Assembly: GCA_963575645.1 (NCBI GenBank)
Contig: OY754469.1
Coordinates: forward strand, 39,328,753-39,392,752
Source: Xanthostigma xanthostigma
Lineage: Eukaryota > Arthropoda > Insecta > Raphidioptera > Raphidiidae
Direction: 5' to 3'
DNA: 64,000 nt
In this document: piece by piece, positions 884 through 62,916 of the stretch
Layout: the number at the start of each line of letters is the position of its first letter
How positions within the stretch are numbered: position 1 is the stretch's first letter
Position numbers and translations under genes: made by a program
Notes under the pieces: model-generated
What the model saw: the letters and a program-made list of their open reading frames with translations, nothing else
Told to the model about the DNA's origin: nothing
Database searches by the model: none

Positions 884-895
884 TTATAAAACTCA

Positions 896-1239
896 AATAT
901 TTGATTAACGTCTGATTAGAACTTTTCAATAAATAAAATTATCGACCACAATTTTTCTGACAGATATATTAACAAAAAATATACCAATTCAATACATTAA
1001 CGTTTCGGTCCGGATTTGGACCTGCTTCATAACTGATCTATATAATATAAAAATTAATTAATATTTCAATATTAAAATACTTTAAACGAATTTTATTAAA
1101 GACTAAATATTAATTAATTTTTATATTTTTAGATCAATTCTGAAGAAGGTCCAAACCCGGACCGAAACGTTAATGTATTGAATTTATATATTTTTTGTTA
1201 ATATATTTGTCTGAAAAATTGGTCGATAATTTTATTTAT
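896..1239. mobile_element. Penelope-like inverted-arm repeat with hammerhead-like cores
   Basis: Two inverted arms (about 900-1040 and 1110-1239) surround an AT-rich loop. A perfect 12-bp TSD TTATAAAACTCA stands at 884-895 and 1240-1251. Right arm, plus strand, 1140-1169: CTGAAGA, stem GGTCC/GGACC, GAAAC. The left arm carries the same stem and GAAAC on the minus strand (997-1031). The interior has no coding frame. Confidence 0.75.
1140..1169 (+). ncRNA. Hammerhead-ribozyme-like core motif
   Basis: CTGAAGA fits the CUGANGA box, GGTCC pairs with GGACC as helix II around AAACCC, and GAAAC then GTT fits the GAAA box with a minimal helix III. Such short helix III ribozymes are known from Penelope-like elements and act as dimers. 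Catalytic activity is inferred only from these boxes. Confidence 0.5.
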
Positions 1240-1353
1240 TTATAAAACTCAGCCACTTTGGGGGGGGGGGGTAGAGTAAATTGGCTGTACCCGCATTTAT
1301 GTATGATAATAATATTTAAAAATCAGCGGTCTTTATTGCGTTTACTGCATATA

Positions 1354-12204: not shown

Positions 12205-13235
12205 AAGGCACAGATCTAAGGAAATATTGTTTTAATTCTTTTTGGAACTTCTTCGAATTCTTTTCTTTTTTAGTCCTTTCTGGCAGCCTTCCGTAAATTT
12301 TGTAACCTATATATGTAGGGCATTTTTCATAAAATGCAGTTTTATGGCAATATTATTGCTGGGTCGTGTATTATAGTGCCTCAAATTGTAATCTTTATTA
12401 ACGAAATAATTTAATTTGCACATTTCAGTAATAAGTTCATAACCAGAAACCCCGTAGTATGTTAAAATCATATTTTTTTCAAAAACTGGTCAGCAAGAGT
12501 CCATATATTTCAAATTAAATATTGATCTAAAAATTTTCTTCTGAATTTTAAAAACTCTATTTCGGTCTATTGATGAACCCCAGATAATTATATTGTATTT
12601 GATAGTTGTCAAAATAAAAGTAGAGTCTTTTGGTCGTATACATTCTTCAGTTGTCTTATCTGATAATAATAATAATTAAGTTTCTTGCAAATATTATTGA
12701 TCTGCAATACCCATCTAAAGTTTTCATCTGTATACGATTTTTTACTGTATATATTTTCTGTACAGGGCTTCTGATTTTAAACTGAACTGAAGATGTTTTA
12801 TCTAGATTTACAATTAGTTGGTTTTATAAAAATACTCAGCAAATTGAATGGTCACTATTTTGATTTGATTTTCTACTTCGATTATTGTCGAGGCCGCTAT
12901 CAATACGGTAATATCATCAGCATACATAATTAATTTACCTACTGTAATGAAATTTGGCATGCCGTTTATAAAACACAGGAATAATAATGGGCCTAGGTTA
13001 CTACCTTGGGGAACACCTATTGATATATTTTTCTCAGTTGATTTGTAATTTCCAATGTTGATGTACATAAAATGATTTAGTTGATATGATTTTATAAGAT
13101 CATTTACCTGACCTCTTACGCCCATTTCATGAAGTTTCTTCAACAAAAATGAATGATTTACCGTATCGAAAGCGGCAAATCAAAGAATAAACCAACAACA
13201 ATGTTGCCATAATCTAAATTTCTACATACATATTC
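12205..13235 (-). mobile_element. Non-LTR retrotransposon (LINE) 3' fragment
   Basis: Minus-strand reverse-transcriptase remnants appear in order: a DLSKAFDTVNH-like stretch (about 13200-13150, frame-disrupted), GVPQGSNLGPLLFLCFIN (RT motif B region), MYADDITVL (catalytic box). Further downstream, in shifting frames, come IIWGSS-like and NLRHYNTRPS-like pieces typical of the C-terminus of CR1/Jockey-type LINEs. The longest intact piece is 12814-13146. The copy is 5'-truncated, has several frameshifts and stops, and lacks ORF1, endonuclease and a visible poly-A tail. Confidence 0.8.
12814..13146 (-). pseudogene. LINE reverse transcriptase, central domain fragment
   Basis: This 110-residue open stretch holds the conserved GVPQGSNLGPLLF and YADD boxes of non-LTR reverse transcriptases (palm domain). 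It is one open segment of the larger frame-disrupted LINE and not a host gene. Confidence 0.85.
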
Positions 13236-18650: not shown

Positions 18651-19060
18651 TGATCCAATAGAATGTTACGATGAAGGAAGGTTTTGGTTGAGGATCATAA
18701 ATAAGCTTTACCAATGTTACACTAGTGGCCAACGTTTCGAAAAATTTATTTTCACCTCAGGGCCTCAAGCTGGTCAAATGGTAGTAAATTGTTCTAACTA
18801 ATAATAATCAAAACGTTACAATTTTTTTTTCGTTTTGGGGTCTCCCGAGTTCAAAAAACACATTTTTGGAAAAAGTCTGTGCGTCTGCTTGTCTGTGAAC
18901 CCGATACAGGTCGAACGGATCAGCGGATTGAAACAACATTTTGGGAGAATGTTTGATATGCTAGTATTAAAAGTTCTATTGATTTTGGGGAAAATCGGCG
19001 CATGCGCAGAAGAGATATAGGTCATAACGTTGTTTTTTATACTTTTGAAAACGGTGTATT
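18651..19060. repeat. Two dispersed repeat fragments
   Basis: 18660-18745 (GGTTGAGGATC, AAGCTTTACCA, GGCCAACGTTTCGAAAAAT) resembles 61938-61995 in inverted form. 18820-19060 contains a GGGTCTCCCGAGTTCAAAAA, TGTCTGTGAACCCGATA and CATAACGTTGTTTTTTATAC pattern also seen, in part, at 37810-37960 and 50490-50540. Confidence 0.4.
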
Positions 19061-23640: not shown

Positions 23641-23920
23641 AAATAAATAAAATTGTTGACCAATTTTTTTCAGACAATATACCTATTGACAAAAATAAAA
23701 TATTATAAATCAATAAAACAATATATGACGTTTAGATCTAAATATAAAAAAATAATTAGTAAAATCTACTTATCTACTTATAACCCAGATCGAAACGTCA
23801 TATACTGTTTTATTGATTTATAATATTTTATTTTTGTCAATAGGTATATTGTCTGAAAAAAATTGGTCGACATTTTTAATTATTTAAAGAGTTCTATTCA
23901 GACGTTAATCAAAGATTTGG
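23641..23920. mobile_element. Penelope-like inverted-arm repeat, degraded copy
   Basis: Left arm TTGACCAATTTTTTTCAGAC and right arm GTCTGAAAAAAATTGGTCGA are followed by ATTCAGACGTTAATCAAAGA. GATCGAAACGTC near 23791 is the residue of the hammerhead-like core. A TSD is only partial (ACAATAT). Confidence 0.65.
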
Positions 23921-32914: not shown

Positions 32915-33159
32915 ATTAGATTGTTGAGAAACACTGGAGCACACAAACAATAATAACAGAAATATCCAAGGTGACAATTATTATTACGTGGAACATAAGT
33001 AGACAGCCTTCATCCAATATTCATTGGAAGGCTTTTGTGTGGTTTCATTGTGACCAGTAAAGCCACTGAAAATAACAGAAACATTTTATTTTGCGTATTA
33101 GTTTTATTATTAGCTATGTCTACTAGAGTTTCTGTTGACAATAGGCTAGAAAAACAAGT

Positions 33160-33419
33160 TCAATAAATAAAATTATCGACCAATTTTTCAGACAATATAT
33201 TAACAAAAAAATATATAATTAATAAATCTTTCACGAATTTCATTAAAAATAAATAGAAACTAAATATTGATTATTTTTTATATTTTTAGTTCAGTTCTGA
33301 AGAAGCTCCGAATCCCGATCGAAACGTATTAATTATATATTTTTTGTTAATATATTGGCTGAAAAATTGGTCGATAATGTTATTTATTGAAGAGGTCTAA
33401 TCAGACGTTAATCAAAGAT
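33160..33419. mobile_element. Penelope-like inverted-arm repeat with perfect 13-bp TSD
   Basis: TSD TAGAAAAACAAGT at 33147-33159 and 33420-33432. Left arm TCAATAAATAAAATTATCGA; right arm ATTTATTGAAGAGGTCTAAT then CAGACGTTAATCAAAGA. Hammerhead-like boxes CTGAAGA (33297), GAAAC (33321). No coding capacity. Confidence 0.82.
33297..33327 (+). ncRNA. Hammerhead-like core, partly decayed
   Basis: CTGAAGA and CGAAACGTA are kept, but the helix II strands (GCTCC and CGATC) no longer pair fully. It corresponds in position to the intact core at 1140-1169. Confidence 0.4.
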
Positions 33420-33702
33420 TAGAAAAACAAGTCATATATATAAATACGGGAAGGAAAGAAGTTGTGGTTCCGATTTGAGTGTGTTAAATCGTACACACCG
33501 TGATAAAACATGCATCGTTCCCTTCGTTTTTGTAAGGAGAAGTGCACAATATATGTTTCATCACGGTGTGTACGAATTAACATCGCTAAAAGCAATTCAG
33601 AAGAAATCCATATAATGACAAAAGACCTCAATAACGTTCTAACTTAAAAGTTTAAAGAATTACGGTGGAGTTTCGACCACTTGGCGTCCACTATGTAAGC
33701 AA

Positions 33703-34153: not shown

Positions 34154-34167
34154 AAACAACAAACGAA

Positions 34168-34693
34168 TCAATAAATAAATTTATCGACGAATTTTTCAGA
34201 CAATATATTAACAAACAATATAAAATTAATATTATATATATACAGGGTGAAAAGTATAATTATGTCATGCTCTAGAGGGTGGATAGAGATCGCGGAGACA
34301 AGCATTTTTAGTATAAGAACCCATGTCCGGAAATGCACCGTTACGGAGTTAGTGCGCCGGGTGTCGGGAAGACAAAGGTGATGGAAAACGGGCTCTGAAA
34401 CGTTTGGCCTGTACAGTTTACTGTAATAAATGTTAACAAAACATTAGAGTACACTGGCAGGCTACAAAACTAAACAATTACAACTTTGAAAAGAACGATA
34501 CGGCGAAAAACTCCGTAACGGTGCATTTCCGGACATGGGTTCTTATACTAAAAATGCTTGTCTCCGCGATCTCTATCCACCCTCTAGAGCATGACATAAT
34601 TATACTTTTCACCCTGTATATATATATTGTCTGAAAAATTGGTCGATAATTTTATTTATTGAAGAGTTCTAATCAGACGTTAATCAAAGATTT
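34168..34693. mobile_element. Penelope-like inverted-arm repeat, interrupted
   Basis: Perfect 14-bp TSD AAACAACAAACGAA at 34154-34167 and 34694-34707. Outer arms are TCAATAAATAAATTTATCGA and the GAAGAGTTCTAATCAGACGT end. The loop contains the CAGGGTG element at 34243-34616. Confidence 0.82.
34243..34616. mobile_element. CAGGGTGAAAAG foldback element (374 bp)
   Basis: TIRs of at least 105 bp, nearly perfect, begin CAGGGTGAAAAGTATAATTA. TATA flanks both sides. Different in interior sequence from the CAGGGTGAG elements at 44200 and 60886. No transposase. Confidence 0.82.
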
Positions 34694-34707
34694 AAACAAC
34701 AAACGAA

Positions 34708-38274: not shown

Positions 38275-38305
38275 GTGCTTTTTGATCTAAATTAATAACA
38301 TTTCC

Positions 38306-38396
38306 TTCAATAAATAAAATTATCGACCAATTATCTGAAAAATTGGTCGATAATTTTATTTATTGAAGAGTTCTAATCAGATGTTAATCAAAGATT
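38306..38396. mobile_element. Penelope-like inverted-arm repeat, minimal copy (91 bp)
   Basis: TTCAATAAATAAAATTATCG is followed almost directly by its complement and the GTTCTAATCAGATGTTAATC end. TSD TTAATAACATTTCC / TTAATACCATTTCC (one mismatch). The hammerhead-like region is absent. Confidence 0.8.
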
Positions 38397-38451
38397 TTAA
38401 TACCATTTCCATTCATACTTGTGGAGTTGGAATGATAAAAAATCAACAAAA

Positions 38452-50495: not shown

Positions 50496-50985
50496 ACGTT
50501 GTTTTTCATATAATAATGGTATACTTTTCATAACGGTTTATTAATCTCTTTTTTTGTCATGAAAGTTTTGTTGAAAAATGTTTTTTTAAAACTTTATAGT
50601 TTCGGAAATATTTTGAAAATAAAAAAAAATCTGCTGTTGTTTTGCTTTGTAGATCTGTCAGAAAGAAAAAAATTGGTCGATAATTTTATTTAAATATGTA
50701 GGTGACCATGCCAACGAATAGCAAATATCATAATATTTAATACTAGCCGTTACCCGTGTCTTCGCGCGCGATTTCTTTATTACACTATATCAAATGTTAA
50801 TATTTTTGAAGTTGGAATGGTTCCGTTGCCCAATTGGCTGGAATTTTTCCTTTAACATATGTTTTCTATTAACCGCGCTACGTAGTTAACTGCTGCAGCG
50901 AAGTAATTATATTTTATTAATTTAATGAAGTTGTTTGTGTCATTTTTTTCACGCGCAAAAGTACGGATATAAAATTTCTCTATAA
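50496..50985. mobile_element. Repeat fragments between mariner-type element and mthl
   Basis: 50655-50695 (CAGAAAGAAAAAAATTGGTC, then GATAATTTTATTTA) is a scrap of the Penelope-like arm. 50741-50985 begins ACTAGCCGTTACCCGTGTCT, then TCGCGCGCG, a reversed Helitron-like end. Confidence 0.45.
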
Positions 50986-60300: not shown

Positions 60301-62916
60301 AAGTACGAAACTGTAGAGTGAAGTAAGAAAGTAATTAATTATTTATTATTTTTATACAACTATAGATTGTCAATTACTCCTTTTATAGTGTTGTAATTAA
60401 ATTGTACCCAATTGTTTAAATTAGCTTTATTTAAGGTCTCTTTGAAACGATTATGAAATTTTTTTCGGTATTTTTGGGCCCAAAAACTTTTTCAATCGCT
60501 AAATTCCACCCTTAAAATAATCCGATCGGGCTCATTTTAAATTAGCTTCGTGCGGTAATGAATCCTAACATGTGGACCAAATTTAATTTAAATCGATTCA
60601 GTCTGTCGAGAAAATAGTGCCAAATTGTCCGACTGACGCCAATAGTGTAAATGCAATAATATGGCAAATACACTAAAAAGTATTGTGCAGCCGTCTTTAG
60701 TGCTCGACGAAAAAATCCAATGACATTTTTACGCGGATCGCTGGGTGATCGTTTTACCATTATGTCATAAAAGAATAATAATTCACGCAATAGATACATA
60801 TAGCCTACTGTCGTGTTCTCATTTATTTTAATGGAAATAGTATGTCAAATAAATAAAATTGTCGACCAATTTTTTTTAGACTATACAGGGTGAGTTTTAA
60901 ATTGATGCTTTTTTTTACAGCGTGTAAAAATCAAATAGACGAGCAAATATTTCAAATAGTTTTTTTATCAAAACTCAAAAATAAGAGAGAAACAGCCTTT
61001 CGAAGTTTAAATAAATTTTATTAAATTTTCTTTAATTTTGAGGTCGGTCCTGGGGTTATATTATGTCACTAATCACTATGGAAATAAGTTGTTATTATCA
61101 AGTATGTGTATTGTTCTGTTTTTGACAACTTCGAACAATTTCTGTGAATACTTGATAATAATAACATATTTCCATAGTGACATAATAATATAACCCCAGG
61201 ACCGACCTCAAAATTAAAGAAAATTTAATAAAATTTATTTAAACTTCGAAAGGCTGTTTCTCTCTTATTTTTGAGTTTTGATAAAAAAACTATTTGAAAT
61301 ATTTGCTCGTCTATTTGATTTTTACACGCTGTAAAAAAAAAGCATCAACTTAAAACTCATCCTGTATAGGTATATTGACAAAAAACAATTTTATTTATTT
61401 GAAGGGTTCTATTCAGACGTTAATCAAAGATTTGGAAATATTATGTATTATAAAAATTAATAAATGTATTTTTATATAGCTGTACGCAAGGCTCATTTAA
61501 TATTTGGTACGTATTTAAAATATCCTAGGTGCCCTTCATTTGTTACGTAAGAGCTTAAGCCGTGTTCACACGTGGCAGTTAAAATGTTCATTATGACTGG
61601 TTCATTTTTTCTGACTGCTTTTCACTGAACAAATCGTTCACACAGTTCAATGAAAATATGAACTGAAACTGAAAATGAATCGGTAGTAGACAAGTAACAC
61701 TCGTGTTGTCTATATTGGTCCAAAAATGGTTCAATATAATCATCACGCCACTTAAAAACCATTTAAAAAAATGTAGGAGTAAAAAAAAATGAACTATATC
61801 GACACCCGACACGAGTTCACACGTTTAAATGACAAAAAGTAGAAATATTTTCTAAATGACTGAAAACAAATATTAATGTTTCATTGTTAGTAGAAGTTTT
61901 ATTCCAAAAATATATTTATTTATATATTTATTTTTCGAAACGTTGGCCACAAGCGATACACTGGTAAAGCTTATTTTCAATTGTTCCTCAACCAAATAAA
62001 TCTCCTTCAATTAATGTTTCAGTCATACTGAAACAGGTGTTCACAGTCACACGTTCATAACTTGTTCAGTGTTGATGAATCAGTCATAATGAACATTTTA
62101 ACTGACGCTTGTGAATACGGGCTTTAGTAAGAGGAGAGAAGAGTCTTGAAAACTGATTACGTAAAATTTTATTTTTTCTAAATTGTCCACGACTATTGCC
62201 TTAATCACTCGTAATTAATTAATAACGATCGGATTTTTTTCAATGATTTTCTTTAATTCAAAATCCTGCCAGAAAGAGGCAAATTTAAATATTGTTAGAT
62301 CCATTTCCTGTTAACGTTCTAAGTGCATTTTTCAGCCACAAAAGATGAGCTGCCTTATTTTTATGCACCAATAGCAACGATAATTTGCGTAAATATGATA
62401 CTATTTATATTGACGGCTAAGGAATTGGCTGGTACCATAACAAACACAAAGGAAATCGTCAGAGATGCCGGCAACCAGCCAGAACGGTTTATTGACAGTT
62501 TGGATTTCAAATTCAGATGGAGGAAGTATAAAAAACTGTAAGTAAATAATACATGGCGAGGCCGATCGGATCAGACCAAACTGATACAGTTTGGTCTGAT
62601 TGGCCGGAATTTTTTTTTTATTTCCAGATTCCGTCTGTACAGCCTTCTCTTCACTGTGATGGGACTTAACTGGTCAGTGGAAATCTTGTCCTGCATGGTC
62701 GAAAACAAACAGAAGGCCATTTGGACAGTGTTCGACATTATTAATGCGATGCAAGGCGTCATCATTTTTGGCATATTTGTGTGTCAGAGGAGCGTCAGGA
62801 AGTTAGTCATCCACAGAGTGAGAAGGGTTGTCAACAAAAAAGAGGAACACAAGAACATGGCGTGTTTTTCATGCAGGAGGAACACTTCTGCCAAAATACT
62901 CGGCTTGACCGACTAA
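51256..62916 (+). CDS. mthl: Methuselah-like G-protein-coupled receptor (8 exons, 493 aa)
   Basis: Exons are 51256-51369, 52512-52723, 53977-54191, 54932-55117, 55942-56020, 56669-56853, 62336-62537 and 62628-62916. All junctions are GT-AG and the phases join without a break into 493 residues, within the usual 450-550 of the Mth/Mthl family. Residues 1-24 look like a signal peptide. The ectodomain to about residue 180 has the family-like CC pair (51-52), further cysteines and three N-glycosylation sequons. Seven hydrophobic segments lie near 182-200, 209-230, 243-266, 285-306, 340-363, 400-422 and 432-455. Family landmarks are GKCLSLYSG after TM1, CFFWLNSMC in TM3, RFFWYS before TM4, CWFD in the second extracellular loop, MGLNW in TM6 and DIINAMQGV in TM7. 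Known members are plasma-membrane receptors tied to lifespan, stress and development in Drosophila; the ligand here cannot be inferred. The subfamily number is unresolved. The start is the only ATG giving a signal peptide with an in-phase donor; a 5' UTR exon further upstream remains possible. Confidence 0.93.
51411..51683. mobile_element. hAT-type miniature element in mthl intron 1
   Basis: Inverted ends CACGAAGACTGTAAC and CACAAAGTCTGTAAC enclose 273 bp. Perfect 8-bp TSDs ATCCCTAC stand at 51403-51410 and 51684-51691. An 8-bp TSD fits the hAT superfamily. A 79-codon reading frame running through it has no family resemblance and is taken as chance. Confidence 0.8.
51902..52377. mobile_element. 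hAT miniature element in mthl intron 1
   Basis: The ends CAGTGCCGG and CCGGCACTG are inverted repeats, flanked by perfect 8-bp TSDs CTTCTTTT (51894-51901 and 52378-52385). After the left end comes a GGCAACTGCCTAGGGGCCCC tract typical of a widespread animal hAT group. No transposase is present. Confidence 0.88.
52512..52723 (+). CDS. mthl: mthl exon 2: Methuselah-type ectodomain
   Basis: This exon encodes residues 39-108 plus two bases of codon 109, between the acceptor TTTTAG and the donor GTAAGT. It contains IPKCCGKFEKLV and FNKTFCK, the CC-then-C pattern seen at the start of Mth/Mthl ectodomains, and sequons at N63 and N84. No stop falls in this frame. Confidence 0.88.
53186..53848. mobile_element. 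Long-TIR element nested in the intron 2 repeat
   Basis: Inverted arms of about 100 bp begin GACCAGTAATTGCTTGTG and end as its approximate complement (CAAGCAATTACCGGTC). The arms match through CCTCTCGG and CGCATTTCCGA. Its point of entry is visible by comparison with the copy at 21066-21225, which lacks it. A hAT element interrupts its centre. Superfamily undetermined. Confidence 0.65.
53436..53682. mobile_element. hAT miniature element, innermost of three nested repeats
   Basis: The ends CATAGGCGTAG and CTACGCCAATG are near-inverted. Perfect 8-bp TSDs ACAATAAA lie at 53428-53435 and 53683-53690. A poly-G tract follows the left end and a CCCCCC tract precedes the right end, a pattern common in short hAT elements. 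Confidence 0.87.
53977..54191 (+). CDS. mthl: mthl exon 3: distal ectodomain
   Basis: This exon encodes residues 109-180 and the first base of codon 181. It carries YCLDF and FLCVPKPPEP, which resemble the membrane-proximal end of the Mth ectodomain, and an NST sequon. The acceptor is TTGCAG and the donor GTAAGT. The upstream intron is filled with three nested repeats. Confidence 0.9.
54303..54700. mobile_element. TIR miniature element in mthl intron 3
   Basis: AATATCGTCGTTGGTTCTGT at the left end is repeated in inverted orientation at the right end (54681-54700). Inside, a short motif like CCTCATATGTGCAAA recurs near 54328, 54411, 54482 and, inverted, 54660. No coding sequence. Superfamily not determined. 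Confidence 0.72.
54932..55117 (+). CDS. mthl: mthl exon 4: TM1 and TM2
   Basis: This exon encodes residues 181-242. TM1 (LIISVPFLIITIVIYV) is followed by the family-typical LNDLQGKCLSLYSGCLAVAF leading into TM2, then an extracellular loop ending DRICVTVG. It lies between a TTTTTTTAG acceptor and a GTAAGT donor. Confidence 0.95.
55399..55576. repeat. Short inverted repeat with CCCGGGTGCAAAT-type ends, intron 4
   Basis: GTCTATTTCGCCCGGGTGCA at the left is answered by TGCACCCGGCCAAAGAC at the right. The CCCGGGTGCA element resembles the 3' hairpin of the local Helitrons, so this may be two opposed Helitron ends. The rest of intron 4 shows nothing I recognise. Confidence 0.45.
55942..56020 (+). 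CDS. mthl: mthl exon 5: TM3
   Basis: This 79-base exon encodes residues 243-268: ARIIQFSFVSCFFWLNSMC, then IETWLNVK. The FFWLNSMC stretch is a strong signature of Mth-family TM3. The exon lies between a polypyrimidine acceptor ending TTTCAG and a GTAAGT donor. Confidence 0.94.
56052..56602. repeat. Foldback repeat in mthl intron 5
   Basis: The left arm (about 56100-56285) and right arm (about 56445-56600) are imperfect inverted copies. Reading frames on opposite strands therefore encode almost the same peptide (DIPISKISLNISVAKNLL). It fills nearly the whole 648-base intron. The peptide matches no family I know, so I treat it as a foldback transposon remnant. Confidence 0.7.
56669..56853 (+). 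CDS. mthl: mthl exon 6: TM4 and second extracellular loop
   Basis: This exon encodes residues 269-330. The basic second intracellular loop (EEQRRRFFWYS) is followed by TM4 (SFPLLLIIVTLIL) and an extracellular loop ending CGQKKCWFD, matching the Mth-family CWF motif. The donor GTAAGT opens the 5.5-kb intron 6. Confidence 0.95.
56988..57620. repeat. Dispersed repeat copy 1 in mthl intron 6
   Basis: It begins with GTCGCAGTGCCAAACCCTGC and contains CCAAATTAAATACAC and TTTTTGGGCCCAAAAAC landmarks. A second copy lies at 59658-60545 in the same orientation and a partial one at 40870-41170. No TIRs or coding frame seen. Confidence 0.55.
57890..59100 (-). mobile_element. Probable transposon remnant with PHD-like finger ORF, intron 6
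   Basis: The motif GTGCCCATATTT or a close variant recurs on both strands near 57912, 58118, 58448, 58470 and 59085, resembling subterminal binding sites. A cysteine-rich ORF lies inside. Ends and TSD are not defined. I infer a pogo-like element because PHD-type fingers are common C-terminal additions to insect pogo-like transposases. Confidence 0.4.
58241..58453 (-). CDS. Short PHD-type zinc-finger ORF, probably transposase tail
   Basis: The 70-residue frame ends in YCTLCKEDD then MRQCAVC then WVHEECCG. The spacing C-x2-C-x8-C-x2-C-x4-H-x2-C matches the first two-thirds of a PHD finger; the final C-x2-C pair is missing before the stop. The upstream half (GSASITKQKAPQSKQQ) is a polar linker. 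It lies antisense within intron 6 of the receptor gene. The apparent start codon falls inside one of the repeated GTGCCCATATTT motifs, so it is doubtful. Most likely a remnant of a transposase C-terminus; an independent small gene is less likely. Confidence 0.45.
   Translation of the reverse strand: MGSASITKQKAPQSKQQSVKLNKATCSGISIPQKESLYCTLCKEDDQKDMRQCAVCQTWVHEECCGLSRR
59658..60545. repeat. Dispersed repeat copy 2 in mthl intron 6
   Basis: It starts GTCGCAGTGCCAAGCCCTGC and ends near TTTTTGGGCCCAAAAAC, like the copy at 56988-57620. It is longer by several hundred bases of AT-rich sequence, so it is either interrupted or the other copy is internally deleted. Confidence 0.5.
60846..61433. mobile_element. 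Penelope-like inverted-arm repeat, interrupted, intron 6
   Basis: Arms AATAAATAAAATTGTCGACC and the inverted GGTTCTATTCAGACGTTAATC end are those of the family at 33160-33419. TSDs GGAAATAGTATGT (60833-60845) and GGAAATATTATGT (61434-61446) differ by one base. The loop has been replaced by a CAGGGTG element. Confidence 0.72.
60886..61364. mobile_element. CAGGGTG foldback element (Tc1/mariner-like ends)
   Basis: This 479-bp element begins CAGGGTGAGTTTTAA and ends with its complement. Arms of roughly 200 bp are nearly perfect, and TA dinucleotides flank both sides. Its twin at 44200-44678 is also 479 bp. No transposase. TA target and CAGGGTG-type ends suggest IS630/Tc1/mariner mobilisation. Confidence 0.75.
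61558..62123. mobile_element. TIR element with TTA target site, mthl intron 6
   Basis: The left end AGCCGTGTTCACACG and the right end CGTATTCACAAGC-type complement (566 bp apart) are flanked by TTA on both sides. A longer shared inverted stretch, CAGTTAAAATGTTCATTATG, lies just inside. A 3-bp TTA duplication suggests PIF/Harbinger. The piece 61938-61995 also resembles, in inverted form, 18660-18740. Confidence 0.65.
62336..62537 (+). CDS. mthl: mthl exon 7: TM5 and third intracellular loop
   Basis: This exon encodes residues 331-397. ELPYFYAPIATIICVNMILFILTA forms TM5. The remainder is a charged third intracellular loop containing DFKFRWRKYKKL. It is separated from exon 8 by an intron of only 90 bases that contains a perfect hairpin. 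Confidence 0.95.
62571..62599. promoter_or_regulatory. Perfect hairpin inside the 90-base intron 7 of mthl
   Basis: TCAGACCAAACTG, loop ATA, CAGTTTGGTCTGA: a 13-bp perfect stem. GGCC on each side could extend it. It lies between the donor (62538) and the polypyrimidine tract, so it would form in the pre-mRNA and could influence splicing. Confidence 0.6.
62628..62916 (+). CDS. mthl: mthl exon 8: TM6, TM7 and C-terminal tail
   Basis: This exon encodes residues 398-493 and the stop TAA. It carries FRLYSLLFTVMGLNWSVEIL (TM6) and FDIINAMQGVIIFGIFV (TM7), then a basic cytoplasmic tail with a CFSCRR cysteine pair and end GLTD. The conserved GLNW and NAMQG motifs are those of the Mth family. Confidence 0.95.

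Follow-up and report, generated by a model that had tools for sequence, protein, structure and literature searches.

Head-to-head repeats with a Penelope-type hammerhead motif in Xanthostigma xanthostigma: a one-tail-per-insertion pattern that points to two-ended priming

Introduction

A 64,000-nucleotide stretch of the genome of Xanthostigma xanthostigma (Insecta; Raphidioptera; contig OY754469.1, positions 39,328,753 to 39,392,752, forward strand), referred to as a whole as the window, contains six short repeats with inverted arms, and the question that this locus raises is how such palindromes come into being. A first-pass annotation made from the letters of the window took them for noncoding derivatives of Penelope-like elements (PLEs) with hammerhead ribozymes on opposed arms, a structure that could self-cleave on either strand. 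The noncoding PLE derivative with a PLE-type hammerhead motif in its opposed arms is supported by our analyses, both by a match to a covariance model of PLE hammerheads (R1) and by the anatomy of a sister family that encodes the PLE proteins; the either-strand self-cleaving structure fared less well. We consider it probable that the window repeats are non-autonomous PLE insertions, in which two 5'-truncated copies of the pseudo-long terminal repeat (pLTR) lie head to head between target-site duplications (TSDs) as a result of two-ended priming. An observation on which this reading rests is that each insertion has one end with a short tail and one end without it, which in the copies examined is close to a rule.

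Results

The inverted arms were found at all six positions first claimed (896, 23641, 33160, 34168, 38306, and 60846), and with them a feature that had been overlooked, a tail of ~28-33 bp that is present on one arm only in 6/6 window copies. In what follows, T denotes the end with the tail, S the end without it, and X another repeat abutting the short end. Read in one orientation, a copy consists of a TSD, a tail of ~30 bp (the reverse complement of GAAGAGTTCTAATCAGACGTTAATCAAAGATTTG minus its first bases), the T arm, a centre, the S arm without tail, and the second TSD. The TSDs of 12-14 bp ascribed to five copies were recovered, with coordinates now fixed for all five; the best flank match of the copy at 23641 (copy 2) was only 7 bp as a TSD. 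The features are as follows.

884..895, no strand: left TSD of copy 1, TTATAAAACTCA, an exact match with 1240-1251
896..927, minus strand: tail (T end) of copy 1, reverse complement of the ~30-nt extension past the short end
928..1043, minus strand: T arm of copy 1, a 5'-truncated pLTR copy with its sense on the minus strand (inverted repeat 949-1040/1130-1221, 91%)
987..1042, minus strand: hammerhead-like motif in the T arm of copy 1, CTGA changed to ATGA (R1, 17.6 bits, E 0.11)
1044..1127, no strand: head-to-head centre of copy 1 (inner arms 1044-1066/1105-1127)
1128..1183, plus strand: hammerhead motif in the S arm of copy 1 (R1, 31.9 bits, E 3.4e-5; core 1140-1171)
1130..1239, plus strand: S arm of copy 1, without tail, up to the short end
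1240..1251, no strand: right TSD of copy 1, pairing exactly with 884-895
23641..23917, minus strand: copy 2, S arm on the left, tail 23889-23917 on the right, arms 94% complementary
33147..33432, minus strand: copy 3, exact TSDs 33147-33159/33420-33432, S end at 33160, tail 33392-33419
33288..33337, plus strand: hammerhead-like motif of copy 3, core 33297-33328 (R1, 17.8 bits, E 0.099)
34154..34707, minus strand: copy 4, exact TSDs 34154-34167/34694-34707, tail 34664-34693
38292..38410, minus strand: copy 5, ends only (28 + 8 + 28 bp), TSDs 38292-38305/38397-38410 with one mismatch, tail 38368-38397
60833..61446, minus strand: copy 6, TSDs 60833-60845/61434-61446 with one mismatch, tail 61404-61433
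50671..50692, plus strand: isolated arm-end fragment of 22 bp

Nested inverted-repeat insertions ending in CAGGGTG-like sequence interrupt copy 4 (~34232-34624) and copy 6 (~60882-61368); these insertions have inner arms 118 and 116 bp long that are 100% complementary.

The same arms are abundant in the genome: a 17-base arm end with open flank gave 7,331 + 7,379 = 14,710 matches in 623 Mb, against 2 + 1 for a reversed-pattern control. TSDs were scored in 47 oriented copies, namely window copies 1-3, 21 copies from 20 listed arm-end loci, and, for the rest, the best matches of two other searches; the flank match score was at least 9 in 32/47 of them (31/46 without the duplicate L001, which is window copy 1), and only 1.0% of 921 mismatched flank pairs used as a control reached the TSD score, showing that real TSDs exceed chance. 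Window copies 4-6 were left out of the genome-copy tests, L023 and L029 were unscored in the flank test, the duplicates L005, L009, L019, L022, and L028 were dropped before counting, and a 49-copy set was confined to copies of up to 900 bp with a second arm. On first look, inverted ends and abundance of this order resemble those of a miniature inverted-repeat transposable element (MITE), i.e. an ordinary DNA transposon derivative (hAT, Mutator, or similar) with hammerhead-like letters arising by chance. Such an element would have a fixed TSD and symmetric terminal inverted repeats, whereas here TSD length varies (about 11-16 bp), the ends are asymmetric, and the centre is variable; the match to the PLE hammerhead model (E 3.4e-5) and the occurrence of the same anatomy in a family encoding reverse transcriptase plus GIY-YIG endonuclease also argue against a MITE, which we regard as very improbable. 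Short variable TSDs, AT-rich targets, and 5' truncation are all as found in PLEs.

The first-pass annotation had proposed a genome search for a full element encoding reverse transcriptase and GIY-YIG endonuclease. At least 37 GIY-YIG matches were obtained in the genome (150 of 521 candidates scored), and window-family arms were not found as termini of the 30 GIY-YIG loci fetched, so that no full element with these arms came to light, while a sister family encodes both domains. A search for sequence upstream of CATGACTACTT found one place only and led nowhere. No open reading frame (ORF) for reverse transcriptase plus GIY-YIG lies within the window element, and no stop-to-stop frame of at least 150 amino acids was found inside the window; because of this, and because the arms were not found to terminate the 30 GIY-YIG loci fetched, the window family is a noncoding derivative at most. 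The sister family (L051-L068), hereafter the coding family, was the commonest among the GIY-YIG matches scored. Its frame (in L060) matches RVT_1 at 5.5e-12 and GIY-YIG at 1.1e-5, and its 3' end consists of a hammerhead followed by the S end ...CTCTATTTTTTAT, to which a tail of ~36 nt, TAGATTCAAACCACAGTGCTCTTAATATTTTTGTTA, is added in some copies. The genome holds 921 of its arm ends.

The pairing of T and S ends was scored among listed ends, i.e. the first 100 per family of one genome, with several class assignments made by eye. In the coding family, 37/37 head-to-head pairs among the matches listed (100 of 921 ends) were T/S (P = 8e-11 if ends paired at random), and listed neighbours up to 6 kb apart showed no orientation besides head-to-head. 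Twelve of the 26 unpaired ends were fetched, and nine of them proved on reading to be T/S, with a partner end missed by the exact pattern; the remaining three were two single-arm copies (L120 and L121) and one fragment (L126), partners farther than ~700 bp being beyond what this would detect. Palindromes reaching into the ORF were T/S in 6/6 cases with both ends in view, a seventh (L052) having only one end in view. In the window family, pairs within 1.5 kb among the 100 matches listed comprised 20/24 T/S, 2 T/X, 1 T/T, and 1 S/S. Head-to-head pLTRs with a tail of 30-40 bp on one of them, an arrangement characteristic of PLEs, are thus present in 6/6 window copies and 20/24 listed pairs. One T end and one S end per insertion is therefore close to a rule in the listed pairs of both families, and in the parts of the open-licence PMC literature that were available, including PMC11167929, PMC3846280, and PMC12910113, we found no statement of it. 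Listed close neighbours were head-to-head in 24/28 cases within 1.5 kb in the window family and in 37/37 within 6 kb in the coding family, and not direct tandem repeats with a hammerhead per unit as in retrozymes. A repeat whose first bases are CAACACGCGTGAGTAATA, or nearly so, directly adjoins the short end in 5/100 listed ends, each time at one and the same base, and its tail-side flanks differ in five loci (L004, L018, L033, L079, and L080); it may reflect an insertion preference or a composite element.

Insertion sites and junctions were read in 20 coding-family palindromes (20 of the 37 listed pairs), which, like the 12 unpaired ends, were hand-picked from the family list, largely in order. 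TSDs were present in 20/20, with variable matches of about 11-16 bp and an AT content of ~84% as compared with 66% in the window, although these strings may include a few element bases. The junctions between the arms are specific to each copy: there are 19 distinct pairs of T/S stop coordinates, the one repeated pair (L097 and L100) differs in sequence, and the arms meet with an overlap of up to 6 nt or a filler of up to 11 nt. The T/S junctions of six copies lie within the ORF, at 2017/1019, 1207/988, 2034/157, 578/578, 1227/1223, and 788/796. In two of the ORF-reaching palindromes (L061 and L062), the tail-side arms contain internal jumps (808 to 1800; ~500 bp of other sequence), which look as if the enzyme had switched template.

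These junctions bear on the possibility of a heritable foldback unit, in which a one-tailed master palindrome would move whole, as an RNA or as a DNA foldback element, its unstable centre eroding later. Such a unit would account for the T/S asymmetry by descent and for the high copy number, and similar arm lengths do recur in subfamily B, as do spans of 185-230 bp in the coding family. It predicts shared junctions, however, and each of the 20 near-identical coding-family copies has a junction sequence of its own, the six ORF-reaching junctions are all different, and TSD length varies. Single-arm copies flanked by TSDs also exist (L034 and L035, 9 and 12 bp). Together with private variants confined to both arms of a single copy, these data make a heritable unit unlikely.

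Arm lengths and shared variants provide a second line of evidence. In the coding family, the T arm is longer by >5 nt in six copies and the S arm in five (two ambiguous copies left out); as the inequality goes in both directions, neither arm was simply copied from the other in those copies. The same counts led us to drop an earlier idea, in which the S-primed cDNA would go first and in every copy be the longer. A single 5' boundary, AGTTTAGTG, lies no more than 5 nt from the start of 13/20 T arms and 10/20 S arms; it is ~14 nt upstream of the hammerhead and may correspond to the 5' end of the RNA. Four private variants are shared by the two arms of the copy that has them and are absent from the arms of the remaining 19; only variants more than 3 nt from an arm start were counted. 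In the window family, a subfamily marker of two versus three A residues was readable in both arms of 35/48 copies and concordant in 32 (16 + 16), with no mixture of two and three and odd values in three copies. On reading, L075 and L084 have a deletion, and L090 an insertion, common to both arms. The arm distance is 0.169 within and 0.274 between copies, a comparison that is confounded by subfamilies and truncated arms and is given no weight here, a copy's own S arm being the closest one in only 11/36.

Apart from the limited scope of the scoring, several observations weigh against two-ended priming as the source of this pattern. Two window-family pairs, L084 (borderline T/T) and L115 (S/S), break the rule, neither with a recognized TSD, and a PLE palindrome of a third lineage, L048/L050, with two GIY-YIG matches, has on reading ends that are alike and no TSD that could be seen. 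Partial window-family arms lie near 4/30 GIY-YIG loci (L041, L062, L064, and L067), apparently as separate fragments and not as the termini of those loci. The T arms of L097 and L100 align, ambiguously, 5 nt beyond the 5' boundary; seven private variants occur in one arm only, by later mutation or because the arms stem from different RNAs; and gene conversion between arms could make them alike. In vitro, start-site choice showed no strand difference (PMC11167929), and a strict rule of one site for each end is for this reason not predicted by that work. Finally, centres are nearly symmetric (within 15 nt, by gapped alignment) in 18/42 window-family copies, a set without L024, L027, L030, L032, and the duplicate Wc1, with L023 and L029 not anchored. 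Symmetric centres, such as that of the coding-family palindrome L056/57 at 578/578, would equally result from self-priming, in which a cDNA or antisense RNA folds back and copies itself into a head-to-head palindrome, as has been proposed for the Penelope palindromes of Adineta vaga (PMC3846280). Self-priming predicts equal ends, yet the listed pairs were T/S in 37/37 and 20/24 cases; the arms are unequal both ways, so that in such copies neither merely copies the other; and the TSDs are normal. On balance, we find self-priming an unlikely source of these repeats.

The hammerhead motif was examined both as a marker of PLE origin and for traces of activity. The CTGAAGA, the GGTCC/GGACC stem, and GAAACGTT noted for the best arm are all present, at 1140-1171. 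The core is well kept there only and weaker at 999-1030 (minus strand) and 33297-33328; the predicted cut in the S arm of copy 1 falls between GUU and AAUG, after 1171. A core scan (stem II of at least 4 bp, up to one extra nucleotide) found two places in the window, 1140 (plus strand) and an unrelated-looking one at 12920 (minus strand), as compared with 0.25 matches on average in base-shuffled windows. With no extra core nucleotide allowed, only 12920 was found, and one nucleotide between CTGANGA and stem II recovers the rest; a viroid hammerhead is known to tolerate one extra nucleotide before stem II. Seven PLE or PLE-like loci outside the window family supplied the hammerheads for model R1; six are known to adjoin GIY-YIG matches, the seventh being that of L071. 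These hammerheads have in common CTGANGAN-stem II-GAAA, and E-values are rough. R1 matched 26/27 related loci at E up to 1, with a few of its 43 matches outside the element. In the window, seven matches were obtained at E up to 10, three of them within inverted-arm copies (1128-1183, 33288-33337, and 987-1042), whereas the three weakest are probably due to chance; R1 found no hammerhead in copy 2. A second PLE-like hammerhead, at 18720-18772 on the minus strand (R1 E 0.014), reads GAAACGUUGGCC with, by reading, a GGCC stem I, and resembles that at L071 2914.

The hammerhead-model check suggested in the first-pass annotation therefore had a divided outcome, R1 recognizing 1128-1183 (plus strand, E 3.4e-5) and Rfam giving no match in the window at gathering level. 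Rfam at E up to 10 likewise gave no hammerhead match in ten loci, six of which (L060, L039, L049, L048, L045, and L046) carry PLE hammerheads beside GIY-YIG; because it also misses these, Rfam does not discriminate, and its silence does not refute the motif. PLE hammerheads are described as minimal forms without helix III (PMC6155905), and the window motif, GAAACGUU followed directly by the cut, fits such a form. The window family thus has a minimal hammerhead in its terminal repeat, as PLEs do; core and cut-site register are consistent with the hammerhead type, and its activity is putative.

A further reading is that the two opposed hammerheads are maintained as a functional device, so that transcripts of either strand would self-cleave in retrozyme-like RNA processing. 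In its favour, a 35-place core pattern is kept in 1,822 + 1,815 = 3,637 genome matches (control 0), although this may merely reflect recent copying. Window-family arms start at the predicted cut in 37 genome matches, or 24 varied ones without 13 identical AT-rich 26-mers, as against 0 when the position is shifted four bases upstream and 4 when it is shifted as far downstream, for which a reversed pattern gave 2; the three patterns are unequally permissive (~0.20, 0.12, and 0.16 by base-frequency estimate), and small deletions may account for part of the 24. This is suggestive of a genomic trace of cleavage, and the coding family points the opposite way, with 0/40 arm ends at the predicted cut. 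In addition, the full-element transcript is predicted to form one long hairpin, arm to arm (-157 kcal/mol versus a mean of -47 for 100 shuffles), in which the hammerhead segment pairs with the opposite arm. By this prediction the hammerhead would be paired away, and the either-strand self-cleaving structure put forward in the first-pass annotation is not supported. In vitro, hammerhead mutants still insert, most of the RNA used as substrate is uncleaved, and the protein was required for cleavage (PMC11167929). We thus hold a maintained ribozyme device to be improbable; the inverted arms make better sense as a relic of the insertion process. The hammerhead is a PLE hallmark and, since 26/40 arms in the 20 coding-family palindromes hold the whole core, is probably dispensable for insertion. 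At two places, C1:5634237-5634284 and C1:13363524, the arm end reads like two arms abutting at AACGTT, a self-complementary part of the hammerhead, as would result from annealing between equal ends of two cDNAs.

Discussion

In the two-ended priming that we consider probable, the PLE enzyme would cut both target strands ~11-16 bp apart, and each target 3' end would prime reverse transcription inside the element RNA. One end would be primed at a downstream start site, leaving the ~30-36-nt tail of the T end, and the other at an adjacent upstream start site, giving the S end; both cDNAs would be copied from one RNA, or from RNAs of one source, would extend to the RNA 5' end or fall short of it, and would be united in the middle by end joining. 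If each cut strand took its own start site on the same RNA, the outcome would be two inverted arms, only one of them tailed, flanked by TSDs and joined in a way particular to the copy. That both cut strands prime at the same time, that a single RNA serves each event, that the enzyme is a dimer, and where the RNA 5' end lies are what we infer from these traces. Such two-primer, one-RNA logic is reminiscent of LINE-1 twin priming, in which two primers, one per target strand, act on one RNA to leave inverted pieces between TSDs. In LINE-1, the second primer acts at variable internal places, so that each piece represents a different part of the RNA, whereas the start sites proposed here are ~30-36 nt apart, making the arms nearly identical and hence palindromic.

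Parts of this anatomy are shared with known systems. For example, Penelope elements of Adineta vaga (Pen2a_Av and others) have head-to-head inverted pLTRs, short TSDs (reported as 8-10 bp), and on one of the inverted pLTRs a 3' tail of 31 bp, but their copy number is low, the tail is optional, and self-priming on an antisense template was proposed (PMC3846280); here, on the other hand, there are thousands of short noncoding arm ends, and among listed pairs one tail per copy is found nearly always. In PAc, a Poseidon PLE of Anolis carolinensis, the enzyme cuts and extends both target strands in vitro, two adjacent internal start sites of reverse transcription define the tail, the hammerhead lies near these sites, and targets are AT-rich (PMC11167929). 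Genomic PAc copies are described as tandem, in contrast to the present ones, and neither palindromic insertions nor a one-site-per-end rule appear in the main text of that report. Retrozymes with type I hammerheads are likewise short, noncoding, low-GC hammerhead repeats, for which PLEs have been named as candidate movers, but their units are tandem, in direct orientation, and carry canonical type I hammerheads (PMC7229834), whereas the arms here are inverted and of the minimal PLE type.

As for the insertion process itself, self-priming is preferred in the 2013 study of Adineta vaga, which calls for experiments (PMC3846280), and later steps of insertion are left unvalidated by the in vitro work of 2024 (PMC11167929). 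The near-strict one-tail pattern connects the two start sites seen in vitro with the T and S ends of genomic insertions and speaks against self-priming, thereby offering a concrete test of insertion by a poorly understood class of elements. Two-ended insertion could in addition account for the origin of abundant "MITE-like" palindromes that bear hammerhead motifs. More generally, we lean towards the view that PLE integration may be a programmed two-ended event, in which one RNA with two adjacent start sites, each used once for one cut strand, gives rise to palindromes as the normal outcome when reverse transcription starts near the mRNA 5' end. If this is true, the T/S rule would mark the action of a dimeric PLE enzyme in vivo, and one genome might preserve thousands of instances of it.
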